Positions 5,739-63,766 of a DNA stretch of 64,000 nucleotides are shown one piece after another. Source of the stretch: Ruminococcus sp. (lineage in GTDB: Bacteria; Bacillota; Clostridia; Oscillospirales; Ruminococcaceae); assembly GCA_017626015.1 (NCBI GenBank), contig JAGAJO010000013.1, positions 20,125 to 84,124 of the forward strand. The letters run 5' to 3'. The stretch's first letter is position 1. Each line of letters starts with the position of its first letter. The translations under genes and the position numbers were made by a program. The notes beneath the pieces are model-generated. The model ran no database searches, had not been told where the DNA came from, and saw nothing but the letters and a program-made list of their open reading frames with translations.

Positions 5739-5792
5739 ATACGAGGATTTATATGTGTATTTATCTTCCCTTGGGAAAGAGGTGAAAGCTGA
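5739..5792 (+). pseudogene. cotJB: Probable 3' remnant of cotJB
   Basis: A frame open from 5739 ends ...FPWERGES and its TGA overlaps the ATG of the cotJC fragment as TGATG. CotJB proteins characteristically end in a Pro-Trp-Pro-Trp-Glu-like motif and cotJB normally sits directly before cotJC. Only the last 8-10 residues fit, so the body of cotJB must lie left of the tyrosine-integrase element, outside this window. The call rests on a short motif plus gene order. Confidence 0.5.
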
Positions 5793-5905
5793 TGTGGCAG
5801 TACGAGAAAAAGCTTGAATATCCCGTAAATATCAAGAACCCAAACCCCGCACTGGCAAAGGTAATTATTTCTCAGCTTGGAGGACCTCGCTGCAAAAGGA
5901 TATAG
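5792..5905 (+). pseudogene. cotJC: N-terminal fragment of CotJC manganese catalase (5' half of split gene)
   Basis: AGAGGTG precedes ATG 5792. The 37 codons read MWQYEKKLEYPVNIKNPNPA... then ...SQLGGPRCKRI and stop at TAG 5903-5905. Residues 1-32 match the conserved start of spore-coat CotJC/manganese catalases; the match breaks off just after GGP, where the family continues with DGEL. The continuation is at 63257-63766 in the same orientation. The break lies in GGAGGACC (5879-5886). The fragment carries the start signals but no metal ligands. CotJC is known as a mother-cell spore coat component related to manganese catalases. Confidence 0.9.
5879..5887 (+). other. Left junction of the split cotJC (candidate attL)
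   Basis: GGAGGACCT lies in codons 30-32 of the cotJC fragment. The same frame position at the right junction reads GGAGGTCCG (63257-63265). Bases left of the core belong to cotJC; bases to the right (CGCTGCAAAAGG...) do not. The sites are direct repeats 57,378 bp apart. Confidence 0.75.
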
Positions 5906-5962
5906 GCAATACCGAAAACAAAACCGTCATTCGGCGGTTGTTCAGTATTGCCTGTAATTTTT
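5904..5962. terminator. Hairpin just inside the left junction (terminator-like)
   Basis: AGGCAATAC (5904-5912) pairs with GTATTGCCT (5945-5953), with further pairing between ACCG and CGGT inside, and TTTTT at 5958-5962. It would end rightward transcription from cotJ. Its termini resemble the AGGCAACACCG ends of the 175-bp inverted-repeat element at 23954 and 51373, so it may be an internally deleted relative. Confidence 0.5.
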
Positions 5963-5975
5963 ATCGCCTGCGTAC

Positions 5976-6009
5976 AAAAAAAGCAGCCCCGGAAAAGCTC
6001 CGGAGCCGC
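5976..6009 (-). terminator. Intrinsic terminator of the HPr-like gene
   Basis: On the minus strand a G+C-rich stem (GCGGCTCCGGA with TTCCGGGGCTGC) is followed by seven T (5976-5982). It lies about 30 bp after the stop of the leftward HPr-like gene. Confidence 0.8.
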
Positions 6010-6040
6010 TTGTGCGGAAGTTATCCCGCATATAGTCTGT

Positions 6041-6271
6041 TTAGTCTACGATAAACTGCTTGATCTCTCCAAAAAACTTGTCTGCGTCGTCAGTGTGAGC
6101 CACGAGCTGTATAGCGTTTGAGAGGTCAAGGCTGAAGATGCCCATGATAGACTTTGCGTCTACGGCATATCTGCCCGAAATAAGATCAACGTCAAAATCG
6201 TACATCGTTACAACGCTGACAAACTGCTTTACCGCCTGGATCGAATCGAGCATAATCTTTACCTTTTTCAT
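6041..6271 (-). CDS. HPr-like phosphocarrier-fold protein lacking the active-site His (Crh-like)
   Basis: I chose ATG 6271 (MKKVKIMLDS), which follows AGGAGG by 8 bases. The 76 residues match the HPr fold, including the regulatory helix KSIMGIFSLDL with its Ser46 equivalent. The region of the catalytic His15 reads SIQAVKQ: the His is a Gln and the conserved Arg is lost, as in Bacillus Crh. Such a protein cannot carry phosphate in the PTS but can be phosphorylated on Ser by HPr kinase and assist CcpA. A catabolite-control role is inference, supported by cre-like sites at 38307 and 45123. It is divergent from mtaB. Confidence 0.8.
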   Translation of the reverse strand: MKKVKIMLDSIQAVKQFVSVVTMYDFDVDLISGRYAVDAKSIMGIFSLDLSNAIQLVAHTDDADKFFGEIKQFIVD

Positions 6272-6347
6272 AATCAATTCCTCCTAATCTGCTGTCTTAA
6301 AATTTTTGTCCGTATGTGTCATGTAGCTTTTCCTTACTACACCCTCT

Positions 6348-6375
6348 ATTATATCCATATTTTCCGAATTGTCAA
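6348..6375 (-). promoter_or_regulatory. Promoter of the HPr-like gene
   Basis: Minus-strand TTGACA (6370-6375) and TATAAT (6348-6353) are separated by 16 bp. It lies back to back with the mtaB promoter, the two -35 boxes being 7 bp apart. Confidence 0.75.
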
Positions 6376-6382
6376 TGATAAT

Positions 6383-6411
6383 TTGCAAAAAAAAATAAAA
6401 TATGGTACAAT
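6383..6411 (+). promoter_or_regulatory. Promoter of mtaB
   Basis: TTGCAA (6383-6388) and TACAAT (6406-6411) are 17 bp apart, with an A-rich spacer. The transcript would carry a leader of nearly 100 nt before the mtaB start. Confidence 0.65.
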
Positions 6412-6514
6412 AATCAATAGCAACAAAATAATTAGCTTCCTTTTGTGTAATATTAACAACGATTGGCTTTGTTATTTGTGCATATATCATAGAATCAGAG
6501 GAGTATTAAACATC

Positions 6515-7819
6515 ATGAGGATCTTCTATTACACCTTCGGCTGCAAGGTAAATCAGTACGAGACCGAAAACATACGTGAGCTTTTCTTAAAGGAGGGTCA
6601 CTGCGACGCTGAGGATCTTTTAAGCGCAGACGTCTGCATAATAAACAGCTGCACCGTGACAGCTCAGTCGGATTCCAAATGCCGCCAGCTTGTCCATAGG
6701 ATAAGAAATTCAAACCCTGAATGCGTTATCGTCCTTGCAGGCTGCCTTCCGCAGGCATTCAAAGACAGCGCTGAAAAAATGGAGGAATGCGATATAATCT
6801 CCGGTACAGGAAGAAAGCGTGATATCCCGGAGCTTGTAAGGGAATTTCTCCGCACCGGGGAAAGAATAGTCTCGGTTGAGGACAGAAAGCCCGGCGAGCC
6901 TTTCGAGCCGATGAAAAATACAGGCTCGGACGATAAGACCCGTGCATACATAAAGATCCAGGACGGCTGCGATCAATACTGCTCATACTGCATTATCCCC
7001 TACGCAAGAGGACATATATGCTCAAAGTCCTTGGCGGACATACGCACCGAAACTCTTGAGCTTGTCGGCTCAGGTCACAGGGAGATCATTCTGACGGGAA
7101 TAAATCTGTGCTGCTACGGCAGGGATCTCAGTAACGGCACAAGGCTTATCGATGCAGTTGAAGCGGCTTGCAGCACCGAGGGAGATTTCCGTGTGAGACT
7201 TGGCTCCATAGAACCGGAAATGATCTCAGACGATGATATCGCAAGAATGTCAGAGCTGGACAGGCTGTGTCCCCATTTTCATCTGTCGCTGCAAAGCGGA
7301 TGCGACGCCACGCTGAAAAGAATGCGCAGACATTACAGCTCCGGCGAATTTATGCTGCTGTGCCAAAAGCTTAGAAAGTATTTCCCCGGCTGCGCCATAA
7401 CTACGGATATAATGGTGGGCTTTCCCGGCGAAACGGAGGAGGAATTTAACGAGTCCCTTGAATTTGTTAAAAAAACAGGCTTCTCCGACGCCCATATTTT
7501 CCCCTACTCCCGCAGAAAAGGCACTGCCGCCGACAAAATGGACGGTCAGACGGACAAAAAAACAAAGCAGGAAAGGGCAAGGCTCATAACTGAGGCTTGC
7601 AGGATATCCCGTGCAGAGTATCTTAAAGGCTGTATCGGCATGACCCTTGAAGTGCTTTTTGAAAAGGAGACCTCATGCGATTGGCATAACGGACACGCTC
7701 CCAATTACATAAACGTAAGAGTAAGGCGCAAAAGCCCCTCGGATTCCCTCAGACGGGAGCTGAGACAGGTGAGGATAACCTCCTCGGACGGCTCGTTCTG
7801 CTACGGAGAGCTGATCTGA
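6515..7819 (+). CDS. mtaB: tRNA (N6-threonylcarbamoyladenosine-37) methylthiotransferase MtaB
   Basis: I chose ATG 6515 (MRIFYYTFGCKVNQYE), preceded by AGAGGAG; the frame is open upstream but without a start signal. Length is 434 aa. The N-terminal UPF0004 domain has its three Cys (GCKVNQ, INSCTV, AGCLPQ), the radical-SAM cluster is CDQYCSYC (about residue 155), and a C-terminal TRAM-like region follows. It is a two-cluster methylthiotransferase that turns t6A into ms2t6A next to the anticodon of ANN-decoding tRNAs, using S-adenosylmethionine. The GCKVNQ and GHICSKS-type signatures favour MtaB over MiaB or RimO. Confidence 0.93.
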   Translation: MRIFYYTFGCKVNQYETENIRELFLKEGHCDAEDLLSADVCIINSCTVTAQSDSKCRQLVHRIRNSNPECVIVLAGCLPQAFKDSAEKMEECDIISGTGRKRDIPELVREFLRTGERIVSVEDRKPGEPFEPMKNTGSDDKTRAYIKIQDGCDQYCSYCIIPYARGHICSKSLADIRTETLELVGSGHREIILTGINLCCYGRDLSNGTRLIDAVEAACSTEGDFRVRLGSIEPEMISDDDIARMSELDRLCPHFHLSLQSGCDATLKRMRRHYSSGEFMLLCQKLRKYFPGCAITTDIMVGFPGETEEEFNESLEFVKKTGFSDAHIFPYSRRKGTAADKMDGQTDKKTKQERARLITEACRISRAEYLKGCIGMTLEVLFEKETSCDWHNGHAPNYINVRVRRKSPSDSLRRELRQVRITSSDGSFCYGELI

Positions 7820-7835
7820 TTTAGCGTTAAGGTTA

Positions 7836-7865
7836 TTGACAACTGCCGCCGTAATGTTGTATAAT
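7836..7865 (+). promoter_or_regulatory. Promoter of purL
   Basis: TTGACA (7836-7841) and TATAAT (7860-7865) with an 18-bp spacer lie in the short gap after mtaB, about 40 bp before the purL start. I see no purine riboswitch or PurBox in this leader. Confidence 0.8.
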
Positions 7866-7905
7866 AGATGTATGTCAGGAATGTTAATTTAAAGGAGTTG
7901 ACTCT

Positions 7906-10900
7906 ATGTCAGTTTACAGGATTTATGTTGAAAAGAAACCGGGCTTTGCAGTCGAAGCCGATTCCCTTCTGGAGGGCATAAGATCGGCGCTGGGACTGGA
8001 AAAGCTTACGGGACTGAGAATAATCAACCGTTACGACGCCGAGGGACTTTCCTCCGCCGATTTTAAGCTTGCCGTCCCGGTAGTTTTCTCAGAGCCTGCG
8101 GTGGACGTGACCTACGATCACCTTCCCGCCGTTGGAATCAACGAGCATATCATAGCCGCAGAATATCTTCCCGGTCAGTTCGACCAGAGGGCGGATTCCT
8201 GCGCTCAGTGCATATCGCTGCTCACGGCAGGCAAAAGACCTGCGATAAAGTCCGCAAGAATATATGTCGTATCGGGAAATCTCACCGATGAGGAGCTTTC
8301 ACGCATCAAAGCATATATCATCAACCCCGTAGAGTCAAGAGAAGCTTCTCTTGACTGCTTTGACACGCTGGATATAAAATACGATATCCCCACCGAGGTA
8401 AAGACCGTTGACGGATTTATCTCCAAAAGCACGGAGGAGCTTGAGGATATGCTTACCTCTCTGGGACTTGCGATGGATCTTGACGACATAAGATTCTGTC
8501 AGCAGTATTTCAGAGACTCCGAAAAGCGTGATCCCACCATCACCGAGATAAGAATGATAGATACCTACTGGTCGGATCACTGCCGTCACACCACCTTCTC
8601 CACTATCGTTGACAATGTGGATATCGAGCCTGAGTATGTTGCAGATACCTTTGCGGATTATGTGAACGCCAGAAAGGATCTCTACGCCGGCAGGACGGAC
8701 AAGCCCATCACCCTTATGGATCTTGCCTGCATAGGCGCAAAGCAGCTTAAAAAGGCGGGTCTGTTAAAGGATCTGGACGAGAGCGAGGAAATAAACGCCT
8801 GCTCGGTCAAGATAAAGGTGGATGTCAACGGAACGGACGAGGACTGGCTGCTGATGTTCAAAAACGAAACCCACAACCACCCTACCGAGATCGAGCCCTT
8901 CGGCGGCGCTGCCACCTGTCTGGGAGGCGCTATCAGAGATCCTCTTTCGGGACGCTCATACGTTTATCAGGCAATGAGAGTCACGGGAGCGGGCAATCCC
9001 CTGGTACCCGTCGAGGATACAATTGAAGGCAAGCTCCCCCAGAGAAAGCTTGTTGTGGGAGCTGCAAACGGTTATTCCTCCTACGGCAACCAGATCGGAC
9101 TTGCAACAGGTCACGTAAGCGAGATATATCACCCGGGCTATGTGGCAAAAAGAATGGAGATAGGCGCAGTTATCGGCGCAGCTCCCGAATCCAACGTAAG
9201 ACGTGAAAGACCGGCACCGGAGGATATAGTTATCCTGCTTGGCGGAAGAACCGGAAGAGACGGCTGCGGAGGAGCGACAGGCTCGTCCAAATCCCACAAT
9301 CTCCACTCGCTGGAAAGCTGCGGCGCAGAGGTACAGAAGGGTAACGCTCCGGAGGAGAGAAAGCTCCAGAGACTGTTCAGGAATCCCGAAGTCACCGCTA
9401 TGATAAAGCGATGCAACGACTTCGGCGCAGGAGGAGTTTCCGTAGCTATCGGCGAGCTTGCCGACGGTCTTATGATAAACCTTGACAGCGTTACAAAGAA
9501 ATACGACGGTCTTGACGGCACAGAGCTTGCCATATCCGAATCCCAGGAGAGAATGGCTGTTGTAATTGCAAAAGCAGACCTTGAAAAATTCATGGCGGAG
9601 GCTGCCAAGGAAAACCTTGAGGCGACCATGGTGGCAAGAGTTACCGAGGAGCCTAGACTTAAAATGAACTGGAACGGAAAGATCATCGTCGATCTTTCCC
9701 GAGAGTTCCTTAATTCAAACGGCGCTGAAAAGCACACGGATATTTCCGTCCCCGCCCCTGTATTCGCAGACGAAAAGGGCGGAGAGGACACTGCTGACAG
9801 ATGGGAGGCAATGATATCCAACCTCAACATCTGCTCTCAGAAGGGTCTTGTGGAGCGTTTTGACTCCACCATAGGCGCAGGCACCGTGCTTATGCCCTAC
9901 GGCGGAAAGTATCAGAATACGCCCACACAGGCAATGGCTGCCAAGCTCCCTGTACTTGACGGAGAAACAACAACGGCTTCCGTAATGGGCTGGGGCTTCG
10001 ATCCGTTCCTTTCGTCTATAAGCCCCTATCACGGAGCAATGTCGGCAGTTGTGGAATCGGTGTCAAAGGTCGTTGCGGCAGGCGGAACCTACGAGCATTG
10101 CTGGCTTACCTTCCAGGAATATTTTGAAAGGACGCAGAACACTCCGTCACGCTGGGGAAAGCCCTTTGCGGCCCTCTTAGGCGCATACAAGGCTCAGATC
10201 GAGCTTGGCTGTGCAGCGATCGGCGGCAAGGACTCCATGTCGGGTACATTTGAAAACATCGACGTTCCTCCCACGCTGGTATCCTTTGCAGTATCAACCG
10301 CTAAAACGGACAAGGTCATTTCTCAGGAATTCAAAAAAGCGGGATCTCAGGTCATACTTATAAGACCCGACTACGACGAAAACAATCTTGTGGACTTCGA
10401 CTCCCTGAAAGCAGTATTCAAAAAGGTGGAAAAGCTTATTTCAGAGGGCAAGGCGCTTTCCTGCTGGTCTGTTGCCTACGGCGGAGTTTCCGAGGCTATA
10501 GCAAAAATGTCCTTCGGAAATAAGATAGGCTTTAAATTCACCGGAAAGGTCGCTCCCGAGGAGCTTTTCCGTGCACGCTACGGCAGCTTTGTTATCGAGC
10601 TTGCGGAGGGTACGCAGACTGACGAAAGAGTTATCGGCGTAACGACCGAGGATTACACTATCGTTTCCGACAGCTATACCGTGGATCTGGACAAGCTGCA
10701 AAGGCTGTGGGAAAACAAGCTGGAGCCTGTTTATCCCGTACACGTCAAGGAGCCTGCGGAGAAGCCGGAAATTTACAGCTACAGCGTTACTGAAAGAGTT
10801 GCTCCTAAGATCAGGGTCGCTAAGCCGAAGGTGCTTATCCCTGTATTCCCCGGCACAAACTGCGAATACGATACCGCAAGACAGTTTGAAAAGGCAGGCG

Positions 10901-11619
10901 CTGAGGCTGAGATCTTTGTTGTAAGAAATCTTACCGAACAGGCTATCAGGGAATCCGTGGAAGCAATGGAGGAAAAGATAAGGCAGTCGCAGATAGTAAT
11001 GCTCCCCGGCGGCTTCAGCGGAGGAGACGAGCCGGACGGAAGCGGAAAGTTTATCGTTTCGTTCCTGAGAAATCCCAGACTTACCGACGCTATCCATGAC
11101 CTGCTGAAAAACAGAGACGGTCTTATGCTTGGTATCTGCAACGGCTTCCAGGCGCTTATCAAGCTGGGACTTGTACCCTACGGCGAGATCGTTGATATGA
11201 GAGACGATTCACCCACGCTGACATTCAACACCATTGCAAGACACCAGTCCAAAATGGTAAACACCAGGATAGCTTCCAACAAATCGCCGTGGCTTGCAGG
11301 CTGTGAGACAGGCGACATACACTCCATCGCCATTTCACACGGCGAGGGACGTTTCGTAGCAAGCGCAGAGGAGATCGCAAGGCTTGCGGAAAACGGACAG
11401 ATCGCAACTCAGTACGTTGATTTCGAGGGCAATCCTACCTTTGATATCCACTGCAACCCCAACACCTCGTTCCAGGCTATCGAGGGCATCACCTCCCCCG
11501 ACGGACGTGTTCTCGGCAAGATGGGACACTCAGAGCGTATCGGCGGCGGCGTTTGCATCAACGTCCCGGGAGTTAAGGATCAGAAGATCTTTGAAAGCGG
11601 CGTAAATTACTTTAAATAA
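7906..11619 (+). CDS. purL: Phosphoribosylformylglycinamidine synthase, single-chain
   Basis: This 1237-aa enzyme converts FGAR, glutamine and ATP into FGAM in purine synthesis. The N-terminal PurS-like and linker regions run to about residue 230 (WSDHCRHTTF is typical). Two AIRS-like synthetase halves follow (FKNETHNHPTEIEPFGGAATCLGG; ALGAYKAQIELGCAAIGGKDSMSG). The C-terminal glutaminase domain starts near residue 980 (KVLIPVFPGTNCEYDT), with the Cys nucleophile in LGICNGFQ and the His/Glu pair in the SHGEGRF region. The length fits the long clostridial form. AAAGGAG precedes ATG 7906. It is monocistronic, ending in a strong terminator. Confidence 0.97.
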   Translation: MSVYRIYVEKKPGFAVEADSLLEGIRSALGLEKLTGLRIINRYDAEGLSSADFKLAVPVVFSEPAVDVTYDHLPAVGINEHIIAAEYLPGQFDQRADSCAQCISLLTAGKRPAIKSARIYVVSGNLTDEELSRIKAYIINPVESREASLDCFDTLDIKYDIPTEVKTVDGFISKSTEELEDMLTSLGLAMDLDDIRFCQQYFRDSEKRDPTITEIRMIDTYWSDHCRHTTFSTIVDNVDIEPEYVADTFADYVNARKDLYAGRTDKPITLMDLACIGAKQLKKAGLLKDLDESEEINACSVKIKVDVNGTDEDWLLMFKNETHNHPTEIEPFGGAATCLGGAIRDPLSGRSYVYQAMRVTGAGNPLVPVEDTIEGKLPQRKLVVGAANGYSSYGNQIGLATGHVSEIYHPGYVAKRMEIGAVIGAAPESNVRRERPAPEDIVILLGGRTGRDGCGGATGSSKSHNLHSLESCGAEVQKGNAPEERKLQRLFRNPEVTAMIKRCNDFGAGGVSVAIGELADGLMINLDSVTKKYDGLDGTELAISESQERMAVVIAKADLEKFMAEAAKENLEATMVARVTEEPRLKMNWNGKIIVDLSREFLNSNGAEKHTDISVPAPVFADEKGGEDTADRWEAMISNLNICSQKGLVERFDSTIGAGTVLMPYGGKYQNTPTQAMAAKLPVLDGETTTASVMGWGFDPFLSSISPYHGAMSAVVESVSKVVAAGGTYEHCWLTFQEYFERTQNTPSRWGKPFAALLGAYKAQIELGCAAIGGKDSMSGTFENIDVPPTLVSFAVSTAKTDKVISQEFKKAGSQVILIRPDYDENNLVDFDSLKAVFKKVEKLISEGKALSCWSVAYGGVSEAIAKMSFGNKIGFKFTGKVAPEELFRARYGSFVIELAEGTQTDERVIGVTTEDYTIVSDSYTVDLDKLQRLWENKLEPVYPVHVKEPAEKPEIYSYSVTERVAPKIRVAKPKVLIPVFPGTNCEYDTARQFEKAGAEAEIFVVRNLTEQAIRESVEAMEEKIRQSQIVMLPGGFSGGDEPDGSGKFIVSFLRNPRLTDAIHDLLKNRDGLMLGICNGFQALIKLGLVPYGEIVDMRDDSPTLTFNTIARHQSKMVNTRIASNKSPWLAGCETGDIHSIAISHGEGRFVASAEEIARLAENGQIATQYVDFEGNPTFDIHCNPNTSFQAIEGITSPDGRVLGKMGHSERIGGGVCINVPGVKDQKIFESGVNYFK

Positions 11620-11630
11620 GATAACAGACA

Positions 11631-11667
11631 ATGCCGCCTCCGGACATTCCGGCGGCGGCATTTTTTT
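11631..11667 (+). terminator. Terminator of purL
   Basis: ATGCCGCC-CCGG pairs with CCGG-GGCGGCAT around a short loop, followed by seven T (11661-11667). Confidence 0.9.
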
Positions 11668-11680
11668 CAAGGAGACTGCA

Positions 11681-11956
11681 ATGAAGGATCTTTTACATGA
11701 TCACATATTGATCTATCTGGTATTTATAAATGCTTTGACCTTTATCCTTTTCGGGATCGACAAGAAAAGGGCAAAAAAGCACAAATGGCGTATCCCGGAG
11801 AAAACGTTGCTGGGAATGTGTCTTATAGGCGGCTTTGCCGGAGGCTTTCTCGGTATGCAGACATTCCGCCACAAAACAAAGCATTGGTACTTTTATGCGG
11901 TAACGGCTCTGTCCGCAGTTTTGTGGGCTTTTGCATTAAGGCTTATTTTTATATGA
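11681..11956 (+). CDS. DUF1294 membrane protein
   Basis: The 91-aa protein has an N-terminal span (IYLVFINALTFILFGI), the conserved DKKRAKKHKWRIPEKTLL segment, a Gly-rich hydrophobic stretch (GGFAGGFLGM), FRHKTKHWYF, and a last span. This is the full DUF1294 pattern. Function is unknown. It starts at ATG 11681 with CAAGGAG just downstream of the purL terminator, so it may depend on read-through or a promoter I cannot place. Confidence 0.85.
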   Translation: MKDLLHDHILIYLVFINALTFILFGIDKKRAKKHKWRIPEKTLLGMCLIGGFAGGFLGMQTFRHKTKHWYFYAVTALSAVLWAFALRLIFI

Positions 11957-12156
11957 GCAGACCCACCTTTGGGGAATTAAAGCGCAGGCTCAAGTGCGGC
12001 GCTAGAGCGCTTGCAAGGGGTATCGTTCCCGCAGGAGCGAAGCTCACCATACGCAGGAGCTCCGCATAGGGTGAATTTTCAAACAGTCCGGTTGACTGTT
12101 TGAAAAGAGTGGCATGCCCTGCGATAGAGGGCTGCCTCTGCTCTTTCAACAACATC
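11953..12156. repeat. Candidate dispersed repeat with apparent ORFs on both strands
   Basis: This stretch holds an inverted repeat (CAAACAGTC paired with GACTGTTTG near 12080-12102). It is open on both strands: on the minus strand it encodes ...FENSPYAELLRMVSFAP..., on the plus strand MSRPTFGELKRR.... I recall near-identical 'SPYAELLRMVSFAPAG' peptides annotated repeatedly in ruminococcal genomes, which would mean a multicopy DNA element rather than a gene. There is no convincing ribosome site. Only one copy is in this window. Confidence 0.4.
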
Positions 12157-12184
12157 AAAGGCAGACGAAAAACCGTCTGCCTTT
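12157..12184 (-). terminator. Terminator of the Mrp ATPase gene
   Basis: AAAGGCAGACG (12157-12167) pairs with CGTCTGCCTTT (12174-12184). It lies about 20 bp after the stop of the leftward Mrp gene. The stem is symmetrical and could also act rightward. Confidence 0.8.
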
Positions 12185-12203
12185 ATAATTATGATCTGTA
12201 ATA

Positions 12204-13016
12204 TCAAAGAGAAGCAAACATCTTATCCAGCCAGTCGCCCTCGAAAAGCTCGATAAGTCCGTTGTCCACCGCAGATGAAAGACCCGGATCAATGGGGATC
12301 CTTGCAACATTTGGGATACCGTATTTCTCAGCGATCTCCTCAATGTGGCTCTCTCCAAAAATGCTGTGACGCTTTCCGCAGTCGGGGCACTGATAGTAGG
12401 ACATATTCTCAACAATGCCCACCACCGGAATGTTCATCATATCAGCCATGTTCACAGCCTTTTCAACTATCATAGACACAAGCTCCTGCGGGGAAGTGAC
12501 CACAATAATACCGTCAACGGGTATAGACTGAAATACCGTCAGCGGCACGTCGCCTGTTCCGGGAGGCATATCCACGAACATATAGTCTACGTCCTTCCAC
12601 ACAACGTCCGTCCAGAACTGCTTTACCGCTCCCGCAATGACAGGACCTCTCCATACCACAGGATCGGTCTCGTTCTCCAGCAGCAGATTAAGGGACATGA
12701 TATCTATACCCTTTTTGCTTGAAACAGGCATAAGTCCGTCCTCCGAGCCGACAGCCTTTGAATGGATATTAAACGCCTTGGGAATCGACGGACCGGTGAT
12801 ATCTGCGTCCAGAACGGCAGTGTGATAATCGTTGCGCTGCGCAAGGACAGCCAGCATACTTGTTACCAGAGATTTTCCCACTCCGCCCTTACCGCTCATA
12901 ACGGCATAGACCTTTTTTACGCTGCTTGCGGGATTAAGGCTCTCCAGAAAGCTTTCCGGACTTCTGGAGGAACAGTCTGCGGAGCAGCTTCCGCAATCGT
13001 GTGTACATTCGCTCAT
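12204..13016 (-). CDS. Mrp/NBP35-family iron-sulfur carrier ATPase
   Basis: The 270-aa P-loop ATPase has a deviant Walker A (MSGKGGVGKSLV), DADITGPSIP, FVDMPPGTGD and a C-terminal CPDC pair that binds a bridging Fe-S cluster in dimeric Mrp/ApbC proteins. The N-terminus has an extra Cys-rich stretch (CTHDCGSCSADC), like the ferredoxin-type tail of NBP35. Known role: carrier of Fe-S clusters to apoproteins. It is transcribed alone, from the promoter at 13053-13081 to the terminator at 12157. Confidence 0.92.
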   Translation of the reverse strand: MSECTHDCGSCSADCSSRSPESFLESLNPASSVKKVYAVMSGKGGVGKSLVTSMLAVLAQRNDYHTAVLDADITGPSIPKAFNIHSKAVGSEDGLMPVSSKKGIDIMSLNLLLENETDPVVWRGPVIAGAVKQFWTDVVWKDVDYMFVDMPPGTGDVPLTVFQSIPVDGIIVVTSPQELVSMIVEKAVNMADMMNIPVVGIVENMSYYQCPDCGKRHSIFGESHIEEIAEKYGIPNVARIPIDPGLSSAVDNGLIELFEGDWLDKMFASL

Positions 13017-13052
13017 TTATAACAATCCTTTCAAAACGATACTTTACATATA

Positions 13053-13081
13053 ATTATAACACCCGTATTGCCTTAAGTCAA
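13053..13081 (-). promoter_or_regulatory. Promoter of the Mrp gene
   Basis: Minus-strand TTGACT (13076-13081) and TATAAT (13053-13058) with a 17-bp spacer lie 37 bp upstream of the start codon. Confidence 0.75.
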
Positions 13082-13108
13082 GGGTCTGACGCAGGCGGCT
13101 TTACAAAA

Positions 13109-13136
13109 AACCGCCGTTCATACAGAAACGGCGGTT
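13109..13136 (-). terminator. Terminator of the AIM24-family gene
   Basis: On the minus strand AACCGCCGTT (13127-13136) pairs with AACGGCGGTT (13109-13118), followed by a run of T (13105-13110). Confidence 0.85.
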
Positions 13137-13151
13137 TATCCTGCTGCGGAG

Positions 13152-13829: not shown

Positions 13830-13886
13830 ATTTTTTTCCTCCAATTGATTATTTTTTATTCAACGGACGTAAGTACGTTTCGGACG

Positions 13887-14573: not shown

Positions 14574-14582
14574 TGCAAACCT

Positions 14583-15698: not shown

Positions 15699-15711
15699 AA
15701 ATGTCCTTTCA

Positions 15712-53811: not shown

Positions 53812-53812
53812 A

Positions 53813-55159: not shown

Positions 55160-55162
55160 GGC

Positions 55163-56113: not shown

Positions 56114-56132
56114 GGCGTTTACGGAGGAAAAT

Positions 56133-57287: not shown

Positions 57288-57291
57288 AAAC

Positions 57292-57331
57292 GCAGCTCCG
57301 CACACATATCATGCGGAGCTGCTGTCTTTTT
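57292..57331 (+). terminator. Terminator of the sucrose operon
   Basis: GCAGCTCCGCA (57292-57302) pairs perfectly with TGCGGAGCTGC (57312-57322), followed by TGTCTTTTT. Confidence 0.85.
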
Positions 57332-57333
57332 CG

Positions 57334-59034
57334 TTACCCGTTGTTGCCGTAATAAATCTCATAATCCGATATCATGCTGAGAAGCTCGTTTGCGTCGGGA
57401 GCTATCCCCGTAACGGTATCTCTTATCTGCTGCATGGTAAACGGCTTTTCGGCGCTGCTGTTTCTGAGAGTCATGGCAAATTCCGCTGCGCCTGCCGCAA
57501 GTCTCATATTGTCCCCCATTTTTTCCGATGAAACATATGAATCAAGAGTGACAGCCTTATCTATAAGCCTGCTTTCGTCCTCGTCAGCCTCCTTGTATCT
57601 TACCGAAACGGTAAGCAGCTCTCCCTCAAGTCCCTCTGCGGACTGATTTTCACTGACAGGGTAGCTTACGTCCGACTGATATTTCAGAGTTTTTCCCGAG
57701 CCGCCCAGCTTTGCACCGTCAGCCGTGATTATCTCATACAGCGCAGTCACCTGCTGTCCGGAGCCTACATCGCCTGCGTCCTTGGTATCGTCCTCGAAAT
57801 CCTCGTCATCAAGAAGCCTGTTCTCGTAGCCTACCAGCTTGTAATACGCCACGTTTGCAGGGTTGAACTCCACCTGTACCTTTGTATCCTTGGCAACGGT
57901 GTAGAGAGTACCGCTCATTTCCGTTACAAGGACTCTCTCCGCCTCGTCAACGCTGTCTATATAAGCGTAGTTTCCGTTTCCGTTGTCTGCAAGAGCCTCC
58001 AGCTTGTTGTCCTTGTAATTTCCCGTGCCGAAGCCAAGCACGGACAGGAATATGCCATTGTCCCGCTTCTCTTCAATAAGCTCTGTAAGCCCCTCCTCAG
58101 AGGATACTCCCACATTCAGATCGCCGTCCGTCGCCAGAATGACCCTGTTGTTTCCGCCTTCTATGAAATATCTCTCGGCGATGTCGTAGGCGGTATTTAT
58201 TCCGTCCGCTCCCGCTGTTGCTCCGCCTGCTGTAAGACTGTTGAGACATTCGCAGATGTAATCTGATTTTGCTCCGCTGGTACCCTCCAGCACTACCTCG
58301 TCGCTTCCTGCATAGGTAACGATAGAAACGGTGTCCCCTTCGTTAAGATTTCCCGCCAGCATTGAAAACGCCTGCTGTACCAGCGGCAGCTTGTCATATG
58401 CGCTCATTGAACCGCTCACGTCGATAAGAAATACGATATTGGAATCTATATCCCGTGTTTCTATCTCCTCCGCCTGAAGTCCAACCAGCATAAGCTTTGA
58501 ATCCTCATTCCACGGACAGTCGGAAAGCTCGGTAGTTATGGATATCCTGTCGCCGTTTTCCGGCTGTGGATAGCTATACTTGAAATAATTTATAAACTCC
58601 TCCGTCCTTACGGCATCGGGATTGATCTCCTCACGGTTGTCGATCATACGCCTTACATTGGTAAAGGAAGCGGTGTCAACGTCTGTGGAAAATGTTGAAA
58701 GGGGATATTCTGCAACGCTTTTAAACTCGTTCTCTATGATCTTGTTGTATTCCTCCGCATACAGACCGTCGTTCATTTCCGGAGCGTCAAATTCCGCATC
58801 ATAGAAGTCTTCTGCGGTTTTATTATCATTTTCAGCCATGCCGTCGTTGGTATTCATATCATACCTGTTATTTCCCGTGATATTTTCCTGCTGCGTTCCG
58901 ACATCGGATCTATAGGGTCCTCCACCCTTGCTGTCAGATCCGTCGTTTCCGCAGGAGCCAAGCATGACCGCTGTCAGTATTACCGATACGGCTGCTGCCG
59001 CTGTTCTCATTAATCTGTCATATCTCTTTTTCAT
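57334..59034 (-). CDS. VWA-domain lipoprotein, YfbK-like
   Basis: In 566 aa the lipobox Cys is in AVMLGSC (about residue 28). The N-terminal YfbK segment reads EYNKIIENEFKSVAEYPLSTFSTDVDTASFTNVRRMI. The VWA domain (about 195-370) has a complete MIDAS start, FLIDVSGSMS, with later Thr and Asp (ATDGDLNVGVSS). The DUF3520-type C-terminus follows. It should be an outer-face, metal-dependent binding protein. It lies downstream of the sigma/anti-sigma pair, separated by a hairpin (AGACCTC/GAGGTCT, 59061-59089). Confidence 0.88.
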   Translation of the reverse strand: MKKRYDRLMRTAAAAVSVILTAVMLGSCGNDGSDSKGGGPYRSDVGTQQENITGNNRYDMNTNDGMAENDNKTAEDFYDAEFDAPEMNDGLYAEEYNKIIENEFKSVAEYPLSTFSTDVDTASFTNVRRMIDNREEINPDAVRTEEFINYFKYSYPQPENGDRISITTELSDCPWNEDSKLMLVGLQAEEIETRDIDSNIVFLIDVSGSMSAYDKLPLVQQAFSMLAGNLNEGDTVSIVTYAGSDEVVLEGTSGAKSDYICECLNSLTAGGATAGADGINTAYDIAERYFIEGGNNRVILATDGDLNVGVSSEEGLTELIEEKRDNGIFLSVLGFGTGNYKDNKLEALADNGNGNYAYIDSVDEAERVLVTEMSGTLYTVAKDTKVQVEFNPANVAYYKLVGYENRLLDDEDFEDDTKDAGDVGSGQQVTALYEIITADGAKLGGSGKTLKYQSDVSYPVSENQSAEGLEGELLTVSVRYKEADEDESRLIDKAVTLDSYVSSEKMGDNMRLAAGAAEFAMTLRNSSAEKPFTMQQIRDTVTGIAPDANELLSMISDYEIYYGNNG

Positions 59035-59107
59035 AGTTGTTCCGTCCTTTCTTCGACAGACCTCACCAGAAGCTTCCGTAGAGGTCTGTTAATGCCGGAG
59101 GAAAGCG

Positions 59108-59959
59108 CTAGGCTTCCTGCCAGCTTTCGATAAATCCCTGAAGATCCTTTTGGTCACAGTATTTCATTCTGTCGTAGTAAAAATCGTTTTGCCCAAGCTC
59201 TGCCTTATCCACCGTGCGTGAATTTTCGCCTAGAGAATCCCAGCCGTTGTGGAAAACCGCACCTCCGTCCAGCGTTATCTCTATCTGGGGAGCGTTCTCA
59301 AAGGTGATGTACCAATCCTCTCCGTCCCTAGCCAGCGGCAGCAGGTATTCTCTGTTTTCCTGGAGTATATACGGCGTGGAGCTTTCAAGGGTGATGCTTC
59401 CGCTTATTTTCTCTCCGTCTCTGGAATAAAAGCCCTGTATCTCCAGCTCATAGTCCGCACCGTATGTATTAAGACTAGCCGAAAGCACCTTTACGTCCGC
59501 AAAATATTCCGTCTGAGCCAGTACGTTTTCCTCAACGAAATATTCGTCTCCGTCCGCTTCGTAGCTTTTGTATGCCATGGTGCTTGTTGGGCTGAGACTC
59601 AGCTCGCTGTACCTTATCGCTGTCGCTTCGTCCGCATCTGCCGGCGGTACGTTTGCGGCAGTATCATTTTTGTCGGCTGTATAACTGCTGTCTGTATTAT
59701 CCGTTTTGTTCTTATCCGGATTATTGAAATTTCCGAATGCTTTTGTTCCTGCCGCAAAAGCGAACACTGCCGCCGCTGCTGTAACGAGCCAGAAATAGCT
59801 TTTCTTTGTCTGTGCTATATTCTTTCCGTGTGCAATGTTTGTATCCGTTTTGTCCGTATTACTGTCTATCCTGCTTTCGATCCTGTTCCACAGCTTATCC
59901 ATATCGGGCGCAGTATCATGGATATGCCGCTTGTATTCGTATTTAAGATTGTCAGCCAT
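59108..59959 (-). CDS. Putative anti-sigma factor with one membrane span
   Basis: In 283 aa a cytosolic N-terminus (1-50, DMDKLWNRIESRID) precedes one membrane span (about 54-72, YFWLVTAAAAVFAFAAGTKAF), an Asp/Asn/Thr/Lys-rich stretch and an extracellular domain without known motif. The start overlaps the sigma gene by 8 bases. Gene order and topology are those of anti-sigma factors paired with ECF sigma factors; no zinc-binding HxxxCxxC motif is seen. Confidence 0.7.
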   Translation of the reverse strand: MADNLKYEYKRHIHDTAPDMDKLWNRIESRIDSNTDKTDTNIAHGKNIAQTKKSYFWLVTAAAAVFAFAAGTKAFGNFNNPDKNKTDNTDSSYTADKNDTAANVPPADADEATAIRYSELSLSPTSTMAYKSYEADGDEYFVEENVLAQTEYFADVKVLSASLNTYGADYELEIQGFYSRDGEKISGSITLESSTPYILQENREYLLPLARDGEDWYITFENAPQIEITLDGGAVFHNGWDSLGENSRTVDKAELGQNDFYYDRMKYCDQKDLQGFIESWQEA

Positions 59960-60503
59960 TAATACTGCCCTCCTTTACTGTTTTTCTAAGTTTTGAAACA
60001 GCCTGACGGTATTTCCACGTAACAGTACCAAGAGGTTTGCCCAGCGTTTTGCTTATCTCCTTAAACGTAAGCTCAAAGCCCAGTCTGAGGTTTATTATCT
60101 CTCTCTCCTCAGCGTTAAGAAGCTCCAGCGCTTTCTCGAAGGTAACGTTCCCTATGACCGTTTCGTCTGTTAAAACCGTATCAGCCGGTTCCTCGTGATA
60201 AACGTCCTCGTCGTCGAGGGTATAGCTTTCCCGCCTTCGCTTGCGCAGAAAGTCCACAGCCATATTCCTCGCCATGACGGTTATGTATCGCTTATGCCCT
60301 GTACCCGATCGGTACTGCCCGGCTGTTTCCCACAGTCTCAGAAAGAAATCCGACGTGAGATCCTCAGCGTCCTGAGGACTTTTCACCACTGCCAGCATCT
60401 GATGATATATCAGTCTGCCGTAAGCGTTGTAGATATCCCTGAGACCGTTTTTGTTTTTTTCCAAAATCAGCTTCATTTTGAAATCAAACTCATTGTCGGT
60501 CAT
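59952..60503 (-). CDS. ECF-type RNA polymerase sigma factor
   Basis: The 183-aa protein has region 2 (IYNAYGRLIYHQMLAVVKSPQDAEDLTSDFFLRLWE; the DAEDL motif) and region 4 (LNAEEREIINLRLGFELTFKEISKTLGKPLGTVTWKYRQAVSKLRK). It should direct a small regulon, probably including its own operon with the anti-sigma and VWA genes. ATG 60503 follows AAGGGTG. Confidence 0.9.
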   Translation of the reverse strand: MTDNEFDFKMKLILEKNKNGLRDIYNAYGRLIYHQMLAVVKSPQDAEDLTSDFFLRLWETAGQYRSGTGHKRYITVMARNMAVDFLRKRRRESYTLDDEDVYHEEPADTVLTDETVIGNVTFEKALELLNAEEREIINLRLGFELTFKEISKTLGKPLGTVTWKYRQAVSKLRKTVKEGSING

Positions 60504-60685
60504 TGCTTCATCACCCTTCGATAACTTATATACGTTTTAACACGGCATTTTTATGGTGTGATACTGTACAAATATTTCATACTGTTTTTGTTTATTATGC
60601 CGGTTTCTTGTCCGTTTTCCGTTTAAAAAATAAATTATAACACATTATATCATATTTCGGCATCAATTGCAAACCCTTTTATTTA
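60504..60685. other. Upstream region of the ECF sigma operon
   Basis: No ORF. The sequence is A+T-rich. On the minus strand GAAACCGG near 60601-60608 could be an ECF-type -35, but I see no matching -10 with confidence. Confidence 0.25.
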
Positions 60686-60830
60686 GATCAATTTTAAAGA
60701 TCAATATTTTAATTATAGCAAAGCATTGTTCTTTTGCCCAGAATACCAAAGCCTGAGTTGTCCTTTTCCCGCTGTAAGGCAGGGAAAGAACAACAAATAT
60801 ATCTTTTGTTCGGCATTCTGAAAATTGATC
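60686..60830. mobile_element. Miniature inverted-repeat element, family 2, copy 2 (145 bp)
   Basis: Terminal repeats GATCAATTTT (60686-60695) and AAAATTGATC (60821-60830). The middle shares with 46337-46487 the block GCCTGAGTTGTCC...GGGAAAG..ACAACAAATATAT. The central palindrome is less perfect (CCCGC...GGCAGGG). CAGAATACC and GGCATTCTG still pair. It is an older or diverged copy. Confidence 0.75.
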
Positions 60831-60896
60831 TGCGTGTTACAGCGGAAACAGGCTTCGTACAGAATGTATTACAGATATGATAACGGGTATACTGAT

Positions 60897-60920
60897 ATTA
60901 TCGGATAACAGCCCGATAAT
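60897..60920. promoter_or_regulatory. Leader hairpin or operator of the DUF2383 gene
   Basis: ATTATCGG (60897-60904) pairs with CCGATAAT (60913-60920), directly after a -10-like TATACT (60888-60893). It could be an operator at the transcription start. Confidence 0.4.
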
Positions 60921-60948
60921 CTACCGAAAGGAATAAATACTAAATACC

Positions 60949-61383
60949 ATGATCGAAAAGGATACTGTAAGACTGCTGCGTGAATGCGACGCAGGGATCA
61001 AAATGGGAATATCCTCAATTGACGATTCCCTGAAATGCGTTCAAAGCTCAGAGCTGAAAAACATTATGGAAAGAAATATGCATGAGCATTCTCAGATCAA
61101 GCACGAGCTGCAAAAGCTGCTCGACTTCTATCATGACGACGGCAAGGAGCCGCCTGTCACGGCAAAGGGAATGTCATGGATAAAGACAAATATCAAGCTT
61201 GCCGTCAACGAATCCGACAGCGAGGTCAGCAGCTTCATAACCGACGGCTGCAATATGGGGGTAAAATCCCTTTCCAAATATCTCAACCAGTACGAGGCTG
61301 CGGACGAAAAATCAAAGGATATCGCCAAACGCCTTATCAGTCTGGAGGAGCGGCTTGCGTCAGACGTAAGAAAATTTCTGTAA
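60949..61383 (+). CDS. DUF2383/ferritin-like helical protein
   Basis: The 144-aa protein is wholly helical (LLRECDAGIKMGISSIDDSLKCVQSSELKNIMERNMHEHSQIKHELQKLL; SDSEVSSFITDGCNMGVKSLSKYLNQYEAADEKSKDIAKRLISLEERLASDV), the pattern of the DUF2383 four-helix-bundle group. Conserved Glu and His residues hint at a metal site. AAAGGAATAAAT lies rather far (about 15 bases) upstream of ATG 60949. Function unknown. It is the last chromosomal-looking gene before the recombinase module. Confidence 0.7.
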   Translation: MIEKDTVRLLRECDAGIKMGISSIDDSLKCVQSSELKNIMERNMHEHSQIKHELQKLLDFYHDDGKEPPVTAKGMSWIKTNIKLAVNESDSEVSSFITDGCNMGVKSLSKYLNQYEAADEKSKDIAKRLISLEERLASDVRKFL

Positions 61384-61392
61384 AACGACATA

Positions 61393-61440
61393 GAGCGTGT
61401 TCACCTTGACCCGGACTACGGGCTTTAAGCGAACACGCTC
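61393..61440. terminator. Long hairpin after the DUF2383 gene
   Basis: GAGCGTGTTC (61393-61402) and GAACACGCTC (61431-61440) pair perfectly; an inner CCGG/CGG stem follows. The T run is weak (CATATTTA). It marks the boundary between the DUF2383 gene and the recombinase module. Confidence 0.6.
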
Positions 61441-61445
61441 CATAT

Positions 61446-61676
61446 TTAATCAGCGCTTTCCTGACTGTCAGAGCTACGATAACGGCGTATAAGCCTTGCA
61501 AGCTCATAGGGATCGGAAGAAAAATGATCCGAAAGGCTTTTCCCGATATTCTCCCCTGCTGCTTTTCTGAACATACTCAGCTCATCGGGAGTACAGTTCT
61601 CCAGCGGCTTATATTCGCCGTCTTTTCCGCTGAAGGAGATCATATTATATACCGTAAGCGGCTTTGTCCCGCCCAT
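61446..61676 (-). CDS. Small protein divergent from the serine recombinase, 76 aa
   Basis: I chose ATG 61676 (MGGTKPLTVYNMIS), 8 bases after GGGAGG. The protein has a conserved-looking 'TPDELSMFRKAAGENIGKSLSDHFSSDPYELARLIRRYR' helical region with a charged end. Small proteins of this style accompany serine recombinases in clostridial mobile elements. It is transcribed away from the recombinase across a 130-bp shared upstream region. A directionality factor is one possibility, by analogy with SprB of SPbeta; there is no direct evidence. Confidence 0.6.
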   Translation of the reverse strand: MGGTKPLTVYNMISFSGKDGEYKPLENCTPDELSMFRKAAGENIGKSLSDHFSSDPYELARLIRRYRSSDSQESAD

Positions 61677-61806
61677 GCTCATCGCCTCCCTGTAAAGTCA
61701 ATATGCTGCCTTAAAGCATATGCAAAACGGGATTTGTCCCATTCCGGCGGTTTACGGGTACAGGCAAAGAACGCTGAATATTATCACAACATGAAAAGAG
61801 GCAGAA

Positions 61807-63237
61807 ATGAAAACAGCAGCAGCTTATATACGTGTGTCCACCGAAGAGCAGACTGAGCTTTCTCCGGACAGCCAGATCAGGCTTATAAGGGAATACGCAG
61901 ATAAAAACGGATATAACGTTCCCGACGAATTTATATTTCACGACGACGGGATATCGGGCAGAACCGCAGCTAAACGTCCGGGCTTCAACAGAATGATAGG
62001 CGCAGCCAAGCTCAGGCCTAGACCCTTCGATGCCATTCTCCTTTGGAAATTCAGCCGTTTCGCCCGCAACCGTGAGGACAGTATCGTCTACAAATCAATG
62101 CTCCGCAGGCTGGGCATCGAGGTTATCTCGATCTCCGAAAATGTGGGAGACGATAAAATGTCCGTGCTTATCGAGGCTATGATAGAGGCTATGGACGAAT
62201 ATTACAGCATCAATCTTGCGGAAGAGGTCAGAAGAGGAATGCTGGAAAAGATAAGCAGAGGGCAGATCGTCAATGCTCCTCCCATCGGCTATTCTCTGAA
62301 GAACGGCAAATATGTTCAGGATGAAAATTCTCCGCTGGTCAGACGGATATTCAATATGTTCCTGGAGGGAAAAAGCTACAAGTCCATAGCCGCCTCCCTT
62401 AACGGCGACGGGTACAGGACGGTCAGGGGAAACAGATTTGAAAACAGAACCGTCGAATACATCATAAGAAATCCGGTATATGCCGGAAAGCTGAGATGGA
62501 CTCCCGGCGGAAACGGTTCACGGAGTCATTACCATTCCGGCACCGAAGTCATGATAACAGACGGTACCCACGAACCGATAATAGATCCGGAGCTATGGGA
62601 ACAGACTCAAAAATATGCGGACGAGCGCAAACGGATACACGCTCCCTATTCCAGAGATGATCCCGAAAAGCACGATCATATGCTGAGAGGACTTGTACGC
62701 TGCTCAGCCTGCGGAGCAACGCTTATAAGCAGTCTTAACGGATTGCAGTGCCATAATTACGCAAAAGGACGCTGCACACAGTCGCACTACATATCCCGCA
62801 AAATAATAACCGAAAGCGTGCTGGAGGGTCTGCGGAAAACTCTCAGCGATATCGAAGTGAGCATTGAATGCCGCAGTGTAAAAAAAGCCGATCCGGCGGA
62901 CGACACCCAACGTCTTTTAAAGCGTGAATACGAAAAGCTTGAACGGATCAAGGAGGCGTATATGTCCGGAGCGGACACTCTGGAGGAATACAAAGCAAGC
63001 AAGCTGAAAATAAACGGACAGATAAAAAAGCTCCGGAGCAGGATTTCCGAACGTGAGGATAAAGCGGATTTTCATAAATCATATCCGGAGCTGCGCAGGG
63101 TAATCATAAATTTTTTTCAACTGGCAAATGATCCGGAAATACCTCCTAAGATACTGAACGACGCACTTAAGACCTTTGTGAGCAAGATCGTGTTTTCAAG
63201 ATCCGAAAACAGGATCATAATTTTTTATTATATGTGA
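61807..63237 (+). CDS. Large serine recombinase
   Basis: In 476 aa the N-terminal resolvase domain has the catalytic Ser in AAYIRVSTEEQ, the Arg residues in LLWKFSRFARNRED, and the E helix (EAMIEAMDEYYSINLAEEVRRGM). The recombinase domain follows (about 155-290; PPIGYSLKNGKYV). A zinc ribbon has CSACGATL and later CHNYAKGRC (about 300-330). A coiled coil lies at 370-415 (YEKLERIKEAYMSGADTLEEYKASKLKINGQIKKL). This matches phage integrases and the skin recombinase SpoIVCA. Base composition resembles the host. AAAGAGGC precedes ATG 61807. It ends 19 bp before the right cotJC junction. Confidence 0.95.
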   Translation: MKTAAAYIRVSTEEQTELSPDSQIRLIREYADKNGYNVPDEFIFHDDGISGRTAAKRPGFNRMIGAAKLRPRPFDAILLWKFSRFARNREDSIVYKSMLRRLGIEVISISENVGDDKMSVLIEAMIEAMDEYYSINLAEEVRRGMLEKISRGQIVNAPPIGYSLKNGKYVQDENSPLVRRIFNMFLEGKSYKSIAASLNGDGYRTVRGNRFENRTVEYIIRNPVYAGKLRWTPGGNGSRSHYHSGTEVMITDGTHEPIIDPELWEQTQKYADERKRIHAPYSRDDPEKHDHMLRGLVRCSACGATLISSLNGLQCHNYAKGRCTQSHYISRKIITESVLEGLRKTLSDIEVSIECRSVKKADPADDTQRLLKREYEKLERIKEAYMSGADTLEEYKASKLKINGQIKKLRSRISEREDKADFHKSYPELRRVIINFFQLANDPEIPPKILNDALKTFVSKIVFSRSENRIIIFYYM

Positions 63238-63256
63238 TCATATCCATTGGAAGTCA

Positions 63257-63265
63257 GGAGGTCCG
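63257..63265 (+). other. Right junction of the split cotJC (candidate attR)
   Basis: GGAGGTCCG: bases to the right continue cotJC (GGP-DGELGAAL); bases to the left (ATTGGAAGTCA) do not match the gene. It pairs in frame with 5879-5887; the two differ at the sixth base (A or T). Confidence 0.75.
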
Positions 63266-63766
63266 GACGGAGAACTGGGAGCCGCTCTCAGATACCTCAA
63301 CCAGCGTTACAGCGCACCGTGCAGAGAGGTACAGGCAATACTGAATGATATTGGTACAGAAGAACTTGCGCATATGGAAATGATCGGCACCATACTCTAC
63401 CAGCTGACAAGAAATCTTTCCATGAAGGAAATAAAGGAAAGCGGATTTGACACTTATTTTGTTGATCATACGACCGGTGTGTATCCCATAGCCGCTTCGG
63501 GCGTACCCTTTACAGCGGCAACATTCCAGTGTACAGGCGACGCCATAGGCGATCTGCATGAGGATCTGGCAGCTGAACAAAAAGCTCGTGTGACCTACGA
63601 CAATATCCTCCGCCTTGCCGACGATCCTGACGTTCGTGATCCCATAAAGTTCCTCAGAGAACGTGAGATCGTGCATTATCAGCGATTCGGAGAGGGACTG
63701 CGCATGGTCCAGGATATGCTTGACAGCAAAAACTTCTACGCATACAATCCAAGCTTTGACAAATAG
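63257..63766 (+). pseudogene. cotJC: C-terminal part of CotJC manganese catalase (3' part of split gene)
   Basis: From GGAGGTCC the frame reads GGPDGELGAALRYLNQRYS... to TAG 63764-63766: 169 codons with all expected dimanganese ligands (Glu in DGEL, Glu and His in TEELAHME, Glu in AAEQKA, His in EIVHYQRF). No start codon or ribosome site precedes it; the first internal ATG (63374) would give 130 aa without the first ligands. Joined to 5792-5878 it makes a 198-aa protein, close to the roughly 190 aa usual for CotJC. As it stands the gene is disrupted unless the interval is excised. Confidence 0.9.

Follow-up and report, generated by a model that had tools for sequence, protein, structure and literature searches.

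A cotJC coat gene split in codon 31 by a phage-type large serine recombinase, with host chromosome assembled between its halves, in a Ruminococcus species

We analyzed a 64,000-nucleotide stretch of DNA (the window) from Ruminococcus sp., assembly GCA_017626015.1, comprising positions 20125-84124 of contig JAGAJO010000013.1 (C22) in a 2.42-Mb draft genome of 28 contigs, here termed G000. In this genome the coat gene cotJC lies in two halves, 57 kb apart and split in codon 31. The reading frame, the attachment half-sites at both junctions and the recombinase beside one of them establish, at the level of sequence, that a phage-type large serine recombinase specific to cotJC split the gene in an att-bounded event. 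Gene content and orthology establish the DNA between the half-sites, as assembled, to be host chromosome. We favor, with slightly better than even confidence, the explanation that the decayed phage integrase has been retained for rebuilding cotJC in the mother cell, in which case rejoining here would excise 57 kb of host chromosome. The features that define the split are the following, in window coordinates.

5792..5883, plus strand: cotJC 5' half, codons 1-30 and the first two bases of codon 31 (core GG)
5882..5904, plus strand: attL, core GG (5882-5883) and the non-recombinase attP arm ACCTCGCTGCAAAAGGATATA, recognized by its inverted match to the attR arm, its profile rank and the same geometry in relatives
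61807..63237, plus strand: large serine recombinase of the cotJC-codon-31 family, frame intact (Resolvase and Recombinase domains, alignment)
63236..63261, plus strand: attR, recombinase-side attP arm GATCATATCCATTGGAAGTCAGGA and core GG (63260-63261)
63257..63766, plus strand: cotJC 3' half, codon 30/31 to 198, without a start codon at its beginning

The 5' half begins with an ATG at 5792 and its 31 codons read MWQYEKKLEYPVNIKNPNPALAKVIISQLGG; the frame runs six codons further to a stop at 5903-5905, so that the peptide has 37 codons in all. The 3' half opens GGA GGT CCG at 63257 and ends at 63766. Fusion of the halves at their common GGAGG produced an exact cotJC frame of 198 codons with zero stops. 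The crossover core is best placed at the GG found at 5882-5883 and 63260-63261, with a core-to-core distance of 57,378 bp. The joined CotJC is a full-length homologue that is 84-93% identical to the genes of 22 same-genus genomes, and the 3' half shows 84-93% identity to seven intact relatives (91-93% for five of these). The PF05067 profile matched each piece, the 5' piece scoring below the cut-off; a search of the strain's own genome with this profile found these two pieces, both in the window, and no second close cotJC. An earlier reading of this DNA (the original prediction) had claimed two same-strand halves that join at GGAGG into 198 codons, an interval of 57.4 kb, and a serine recombinase 19 bp before the right junction, all of which agree with the positions given here (the recombinase ends at 63237 and the 3' half starts at 63257). 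The comparison with relatives that it proposed showed uninterrupted genes, and the intact second cotJC in the same genome that would have refuted it was not found with the PF05067 profile. The last base of the window is also the end of contig C22 (84,124 bases), and so 234 bp are known to the right of the 3' half.

The sequences inside both junctions form an inverted repeat centered on the second GG, with matches at 15 of 24 positions; 0.018% of random pairs (n=200,000) were as good. The inverted-arm score was 15 at offset 0, and the next best score among 13 offsets was 10. A profile of 101 arms of relatives, G000 excluded, ranked the left and right arms as the top two of 127,952 window positions on both strands, indicating that both junctions are genuine half-sites of one attP. 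Arm symmetry was also compared among junction pairs (19 tried, 16 parsed, and three unparsable and dropped): it peaked at the second GG in 15 of the 16 parsed pairs, with L207 off by one base, a result that gives no support to a crossover core other than GG. As is characteristic of sites used by large serine recombinases, the attP consists of inverted arms around a central dinucleotide held in common with attB. By eye, a ATATCTTTTTG-like motif could be recognized on many recombinase-side arms. DNA that looks element-derived makes up about 1.8 kb at the right end of the interval and about 20 bp at the left end, roughly a half-site, after which a host repeat follows.

The recombinase has the domains of a full-length large serine recombinase or phage integrase, with Resolvase and Recombinase above the cut-off and the Zn-ribbon just below it (24.3 bits vs 25.3, E 4e-5). 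Matches above 400 bits were present in seven of 61 genomes (G000, G014, G003, G001, G035, G059, and G052), among which G014 and G003 are the nearest sequenced kin and belong to the same genus (Ruminococcus; loci L143 and L144). The same seven genomes have cotJC cut near codon 31, the 3' part alone being found in G001, and such a cut occurs in none of the other 54, eight of which are without any cotJC match. We examined the wider family through the best 80 of at least 418 relatives. A cotJC fragment lies in the locus at 72 of these 80 family loci, nearly always directly beside the recombinase, and a cotJC match was found in all 77 genomes searched for the 80 loci. A cotJC fragment is likewise present in 15 of 80 relatives on viral contigs. 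Departures from a clean codon-31 split are a full-length gene in G112, codons 1-72 in a single piece in G111, and, in G091 and G120, an uninterrupted 5' piece together with a split; the latter dual forms may represent mixed strains or excised copies. Some family genomes also carry a more distant full-length cotJC relative of 35-38% identity. In the metagenome-assembled genome (MAG) G112 (L180), a free attP beside the recombinase accompanies the uninterrupted cotJC, a pairing that fits excision but also an unintegrated phage or mixed strains. A free attP beside the recombinase was likewise seen in G115 (L199), where the 5' fragment alone was found from cotJC. No exact terminal overlap of 15-399 bases, as a sign of circularity, was present in the seven short recombinase contigs tested. 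Recombinase fragments 89-91% identical to that of the window occur on viral contig L373 and at G003:C1:3782-3940, and G003 also has a more distant near-full copy. Further cotJC interruption sites were observed in relatives at about codons 64, 136 and 175, in conserved codons such as TEE-LAH.

The recombinase does not keep to one side of the gene. Among 83 parsed loci it adjoins the 3' half in 39 and the 5' half in 35, nine being unassignable. On a tree of 74 recombinases, switching of side took 21 changes compared to a mean of 25 for shuffled labels, and 26 and 35 of 500 shuffles (for the two labels) were as low as observed; these numbers indicate that the side is clustered slightly on the tree, several long branches of which are unsure. 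In G093 and G097 (L271-L274) the same phage-like element lies in cotJC in opposite orientations, its inverted blocks being 69-95% identical.

The DNA between the half-sites contains the following features.

5901..5956, unstranded: dispersed host hairpin (inverted) repeat that starts at the end of the arm; the chromosome begins about here
6041..61383, unstranded: host chromosomal block between the half-sites (Pfam scans; orthologues in G023, G028, G014 and G003 for part of the block)
7906..11619, plus strand: purL (phosphoribosylformylglycinamidine synthase), with 86-90% identical orthologues in G014, G003 and G023
28334..31039, minus strand: FtsK/SpoIIIE (Pfam; orthologues in G023 and G028)
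39443..40729, minus strand: purA (Pfam)
61446..61682, minus strand: small phage-type gene, phrog_26314, with a partial homologue beside the G014 recombinase and another on viral contig L373

Pfam was scanned with 42 interior proteins from the main frames; gene names that go beyond Pfam names are our own reading. The block encodes HPr, an MtaB-like radical SAM protein, PurL, a NUBPL-type P-loop NTPase, AIM24, an RlmL-type methyltransferase and a penicillin-binding protein; ispH-S1, cmk, a YgiQ-like protein, FtsK/SpoIIIE, bacA, purA, a MATE protein, and a phosphotransferase system (PTS)-GH32-pfkB group; and a YfbK-like protein, a sigma factor, DUF2383 (a region also found in G016) and others. 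The purA of the interval is the sole near-full-length, high-scoring copy (540 bits), a weaker match on C10 scoring 119.5 bits, above the cut-off. No phage structural or conjugation family was found among the 42 interior proteins, the short frames lying outside the scan. In the proteins scanned, the interval thus shows none of the phage structural genes that would mark a prophage, and where developmental intervening elements such as skin, SPbeta in spsM, and gin consist of exogenous DNA, this one holds host chromosomal genes.

Orthology supports the same assignment. Two stretches in relatives, 120 kb of G023 (1.93-2.05 Mb) and 100 kb of G028, each contained matches of at least 45% identity to 20 of 39 block proteins; the remaining 19 gave no match there and for the most part were not searched for elsewhere. 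In G023 this neighborhood lies about 0.9 Mb from an intact cotJC (1.106 Mb). Gene order is partly different in the relatives, and the neighborhood is therefore shared but rearranged. All of the 17 other genomes searched had a relative of HPr, and eight had the YfbK-like gene. Genes upstream of cotJA, which in G000 lies on contig C7, match a G014 contig that also carries HPr-mtaB-purL, pointing to a rearrangement although not to its order. From the host genes and the orthologous neighborhood we conclude that the interval is native chromosome plus the recombinase, one phage-type gene and two half-sites; the phrog_26314 gene is probably a remnant of the original element. In this respect the original prediction was not supported, since it had taken the 57.4 kb for an intervening element, whereas the scan of 42 interior proteins gave housekeeping and metabolic genes and about half of the 39 block proteins have native-chromosome orthologues elsewhere. 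The hairpin repeat at the left end has 75-82% similar copies on G000 contigs C4, C9 and C18. A dispersed repeat of about 150 bp was noted at 60687-60836, with 29 match rows in the same genome, a count that includes the window itself and some overlapping rows. The window contained no Rfam family at gathering score and no tRNA gene.

The intervals in other genomes are phage-bearing, remnants of 3-9 kb, or occupied by core genes. When the interval proteins of G083, G061 and G101 were pooled (45 in all), one protein each was assigned to the capsid, terminase, portal, baseplate and tail families among the matches listed (25 of 35 families); these single matches indicate a prophage in at least one of the three genomes, the pooled tally not telling which. 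The 42 pooled proteins of G097, G093 and G105 include phage-type replication and antirepressor families. In R. flavefaciens SAb67 (G076; L259-L263) cotJC is in four ordered pieces on one strand of one contig, at 53353, 86750, 122294 and 141167, with three intervals over 88 kb; by eye, the edges of the pieces continue as expected. Terminase and capsid families are present with two proteins each among the 38 pooled interval proteins of this strain (matches listed, 25 of 27 families). In Faecalispora jeddahensis JCD the cotJC interval measures 4.5 kb. When ten small intervals (3-9 kb) were compared along with the recombinase ends of G000 and G014, the recombinase was the sole gene common to all 12. 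The cargo of nine small intervals comprises 10 proteins: a class II D/K/N tRNA synthetase and RecD2 in L210, a UvrD helicase in L170, an impB/mucB-type polymerase in L176, and, in the remainder, a leucine-rich repeat protein, a lectin, a PTS regulator, a hydrolase, a glycosyltransferase and one protein without a match. Core genes fill the 14.5-kb interval of the MAG G105 (L275), in which all seven proteins scanned were assigned (thyX, tmk, yceG, a U32 peptidase, alaS, comEC and holA) and whose arms match at 18 of 24 positions. The DNA inside the G014 recombinase is also chromosomal in character (a two-component system, VTC and DnaG). A second interruption in G014 was seen beside frames read by eye, with no family search, as phage tail and lysin. 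On contig C206 of G071 a distance of 89 kb separates the 5' and 3' parts of cotJC, which share a strand but follow a permuted order; a middle piece lies on a different contig.

The original prediction likened the split to skin in sigK, the recombinase of which in Bacillus subtilis is SpoIVCA, and to SPbeta in spsM. The likeness extends to the site-specific, att-bounded way in which a large serine recombinase splits a sporulation gene, but not to the interval as an intervening element. The skin elements of B. subtilis and Clostridioides difficile are reported to split a mother-cell sporulation gene, sigK, whose frame is restored by exact excision (PMC5025042). The cotJC arrangement is similar in having a serine recombinase between attL and attR and in that exact joining restores the frame of a sporulation gene; it differs in having a coat gene as its target and host chromosome rather than a prophage-like element as its interval, and in that excision is a proposed step. 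The SPbeta prophage uses a phage-type serine integrase with its attB inside the spore-envelope gene spsM (PMC4191935); here, by contrast, the phage is gone, although relatives of the recombinase sit in phage-bearing cotJC intervals. The gerE gene of Bacillus cereus ATCC10987 contains gin, an exogenous element of 28.6 kb that has three recombinases and a helper, GirX; gin resembles our case in its non-prophage interval, serine recombinase, short common core and att sites with an imperfect inverted repeat (PMC5595907). Unlike gin, our interval is host chromosome and has no known helper. Further interrupted sporulation genes are yabG (by yin) and spoVFB (by vfbin); these differ from cotJC, and 'cotJ' is absent from the main text of the yin paper (PMC10747680). 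The recombinase is also like the large serine integrases of temperate phages in its domain layout, its near-palindromic attP, its attB in conserved coding sequence and the presence of family members on viral contigs, but differs in that it persists without an evident phage, both here and in the small intervals compared. Among the open-literature papers listed, no title or abstract opening reports an interrupted cotJC, a coverage that leaves out subscription journals and preprints. What makes the case unusual among those of the skin and gin kind is that host chromosome fills the interval and that one coat gene has been hit repeatedly across a large group.

Serine integrases recombine attP with attB alone, while recombination of attL with attR usually needs a directionality factor; the mother cell lyses after sporulation. 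Against this background we propose that a temperate phage integrated in cotJC and may have decayed down to the recombinase, one small gene and two half-sites, and that a chromosomal rearrangement would then have parted the half-sites by about 55 kb of host genes. During sporulation the recombinase would join attL and attR in the mother cell and rebuild cotJC, and the released 57-kb circle would carry purL, purA, ftsK and others. Such an excision could be tolerable, and of little cost, in the mother cell because that cell dies and because the circle still contains its genes. In the germ line the same event would probably kill growing cells as the circle became diluted, and directionality would therefore have to be tightly controlled.

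Both cotJC frames, the recombinase frame and both half-sites look intact, and we regard function of cotJC in this strain as likely. The 3' halves of split genes appear to be under purifying selection, their median dN/dS being 0.037 (3 of 351 pairs with usable dS) compared to 0.027 for intact genes (42 of 325); rows with a stop in the aligned stretch or below 55% identity were dropped before these and the following counts. The 3' half of G000 contains no stop and has a dN of 0.060-0.121 to 19 relatives, dS being saturated in 18. Several observations weigh against continued use of the gene. Over all pairs, median pN/pS is higher for split than for intact genes in the 3' halves (0.223 vs 0.154) and in the 5' halves (0.236 vs 0.130), as is dN/dS in the 5' halves (0.23 in 53 pairs vs 0.072 in 61 pairs), in a comparison where the taxa are partly different and the split set is more divergent. 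Split genes thus appear somewhat less constrained than intact ones, and selection on the G000 gene since the arrival of host genes between its halves cannot be dated. No conserved candidate for a recombination directionality factor (RDF) was found among 12 interval sets, one further family (66-89 amino acids) occurring in four. No sigma-E-like promoter was found before the recombinase in G000; loose sigma-E-like sites were present in 6 of 81 upstream regions, G000 not among them, compared to a shuffle mean of 1.05 and maximum of 5, and strict sites in 0 of 81. An insertion that resembles an integrative and conjugative element (ICE) in the end of cotJB parts cotJC from cotJA-cotJB and presumably from their promoter too; that it is tolerated suggests either a promoter within the insertion or a cotJC that is no longer needed. 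Finally, the outer part of the left arm, AAAAGG-TATA, is also found in the C4 copy of the host hairpin repeat. The inner 14 bases of this arm taken alone were among the best 19 of the 127,952 positions, and the inner 10 among the best 941.

A first alternative is a relic: the halves and att sites would be real, but cotJC would be dead or dying here, the rearrangement having stranded the halves and recombination having ceased. We regard this as unlikely, though the most serious of the alternatives. The missing RDF and sporulation promoter, the somewhat higher pN/pS of split genes and the separation of cotJC from cotJAB all speak for it, as does the presence of purA, purL, ftsK and cmk in the interval, which would make an accidental excision costly or lethal. 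Against it, both cotJC frames, the recombinase and both half-sites are intact, the surviving parts of the element are those that recombination needs, and dN between the stop-free 3' half and intact relatives does not exceed that of the four intact-intact pairs computed. A different concern is whether the junctions are real but the interval a false join, the true interval being a small remnant or a prophage. The assembly is a draft of 28 contigs, the contig in question stops 234 bp beyond the 3' half, there are dispersed repeats close to each of the inner boundaries, and G105, the second genome with a core-gene interval, is a MAG. We nonetheless consider an artifact improbable. The copies of the boundary repeats are 72-87% alike, which makes misjoins through exact repeats unlikely, and no direct repeats able to explain a misjoin were present, diverged copies only; moreover, two false joins on one contig would be needed, part of the block agrees with synteny in relatives, and core-gene intervals also occur in other assemblies.

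The interval could also be viewed as a conventional mobile intervening element, a prophage or a skin- or gin-like element excised as a unit, given the attL and attR flanks, the serine recombinase at one end and the phage genes in the corresponding interval of some relatives. We rejected the 57 kb as a mobile element or prophage on its gene content (0 of 42 interior proteins scanned with phage structural or conjugation families) and on the orthology of about half of the block to native chromosome elsewhere, and we give this view very little credence. Still harder to credit is a CotJC of two chains, with the halves expressed separately and assembling: both frames are open, but the 3' half begins without a start codon and the 5' piece amounts to a peptide of 37 codons.

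Developmental excisions that we found in print remove foreign DNA, whereas the DNA removed here would be the host's own chromosome, as apparently in G105 too. If cotJC is still rebuilt, the bacterium would eliminate part of its own genome in a lineage destined to die. A bolder form of the preferred explanation, which we hold tentatively and at somewhat less than even confidence, is that reassembly of cotJC has become independent of mobile elements: a standing program in which the mother cell would cut its own chromosome, releasing a 57-kb circle with purA, purL, cmk and ftsK, and the germ line would keep the gene broken. If true, programmed gene reassembly would be separated from mobile elements. 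One small coat gene serves, at several conserved codons, as attachment site for a dedicated recombinase family in Oscillospirales-type Clostridia, and the cotJC pattern offers dozens of natural replicates, the cultured four-piece R. flavefaciens included, for the study of excision, orientation and control.

To the left of the split, the ICE-like insertion is marked by two features.

4570..5691, plus strand: tyrosine integrase of an ICE-like or mobile element inserted at the cotJB 3' end and distinct from the cotJC split (Phage_integrase, 1.7e-21)
5766..5780, plus strand: 15-bp sequence TTCCCTTGGGAAAGA, the end of cotJB, present also at the cotJB side on C7 (comparison by eye)

The genes cotJA-cotJB lie near the right end of contig C7 of G000, where the 15-bp sequence marks their passage into other DNA; the insertion in the end of cotJB thus accounts for cotJA-cotJB being on C7 and cotJC on C22. 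The regions concerned are 2256-5780 of the window and about 88.5-90.9 kb of C7; the ICE-like element lies in the last codons of cotJB, its two ends have the 15-bp sequence in common, and CotJB gains a new C-terminus.

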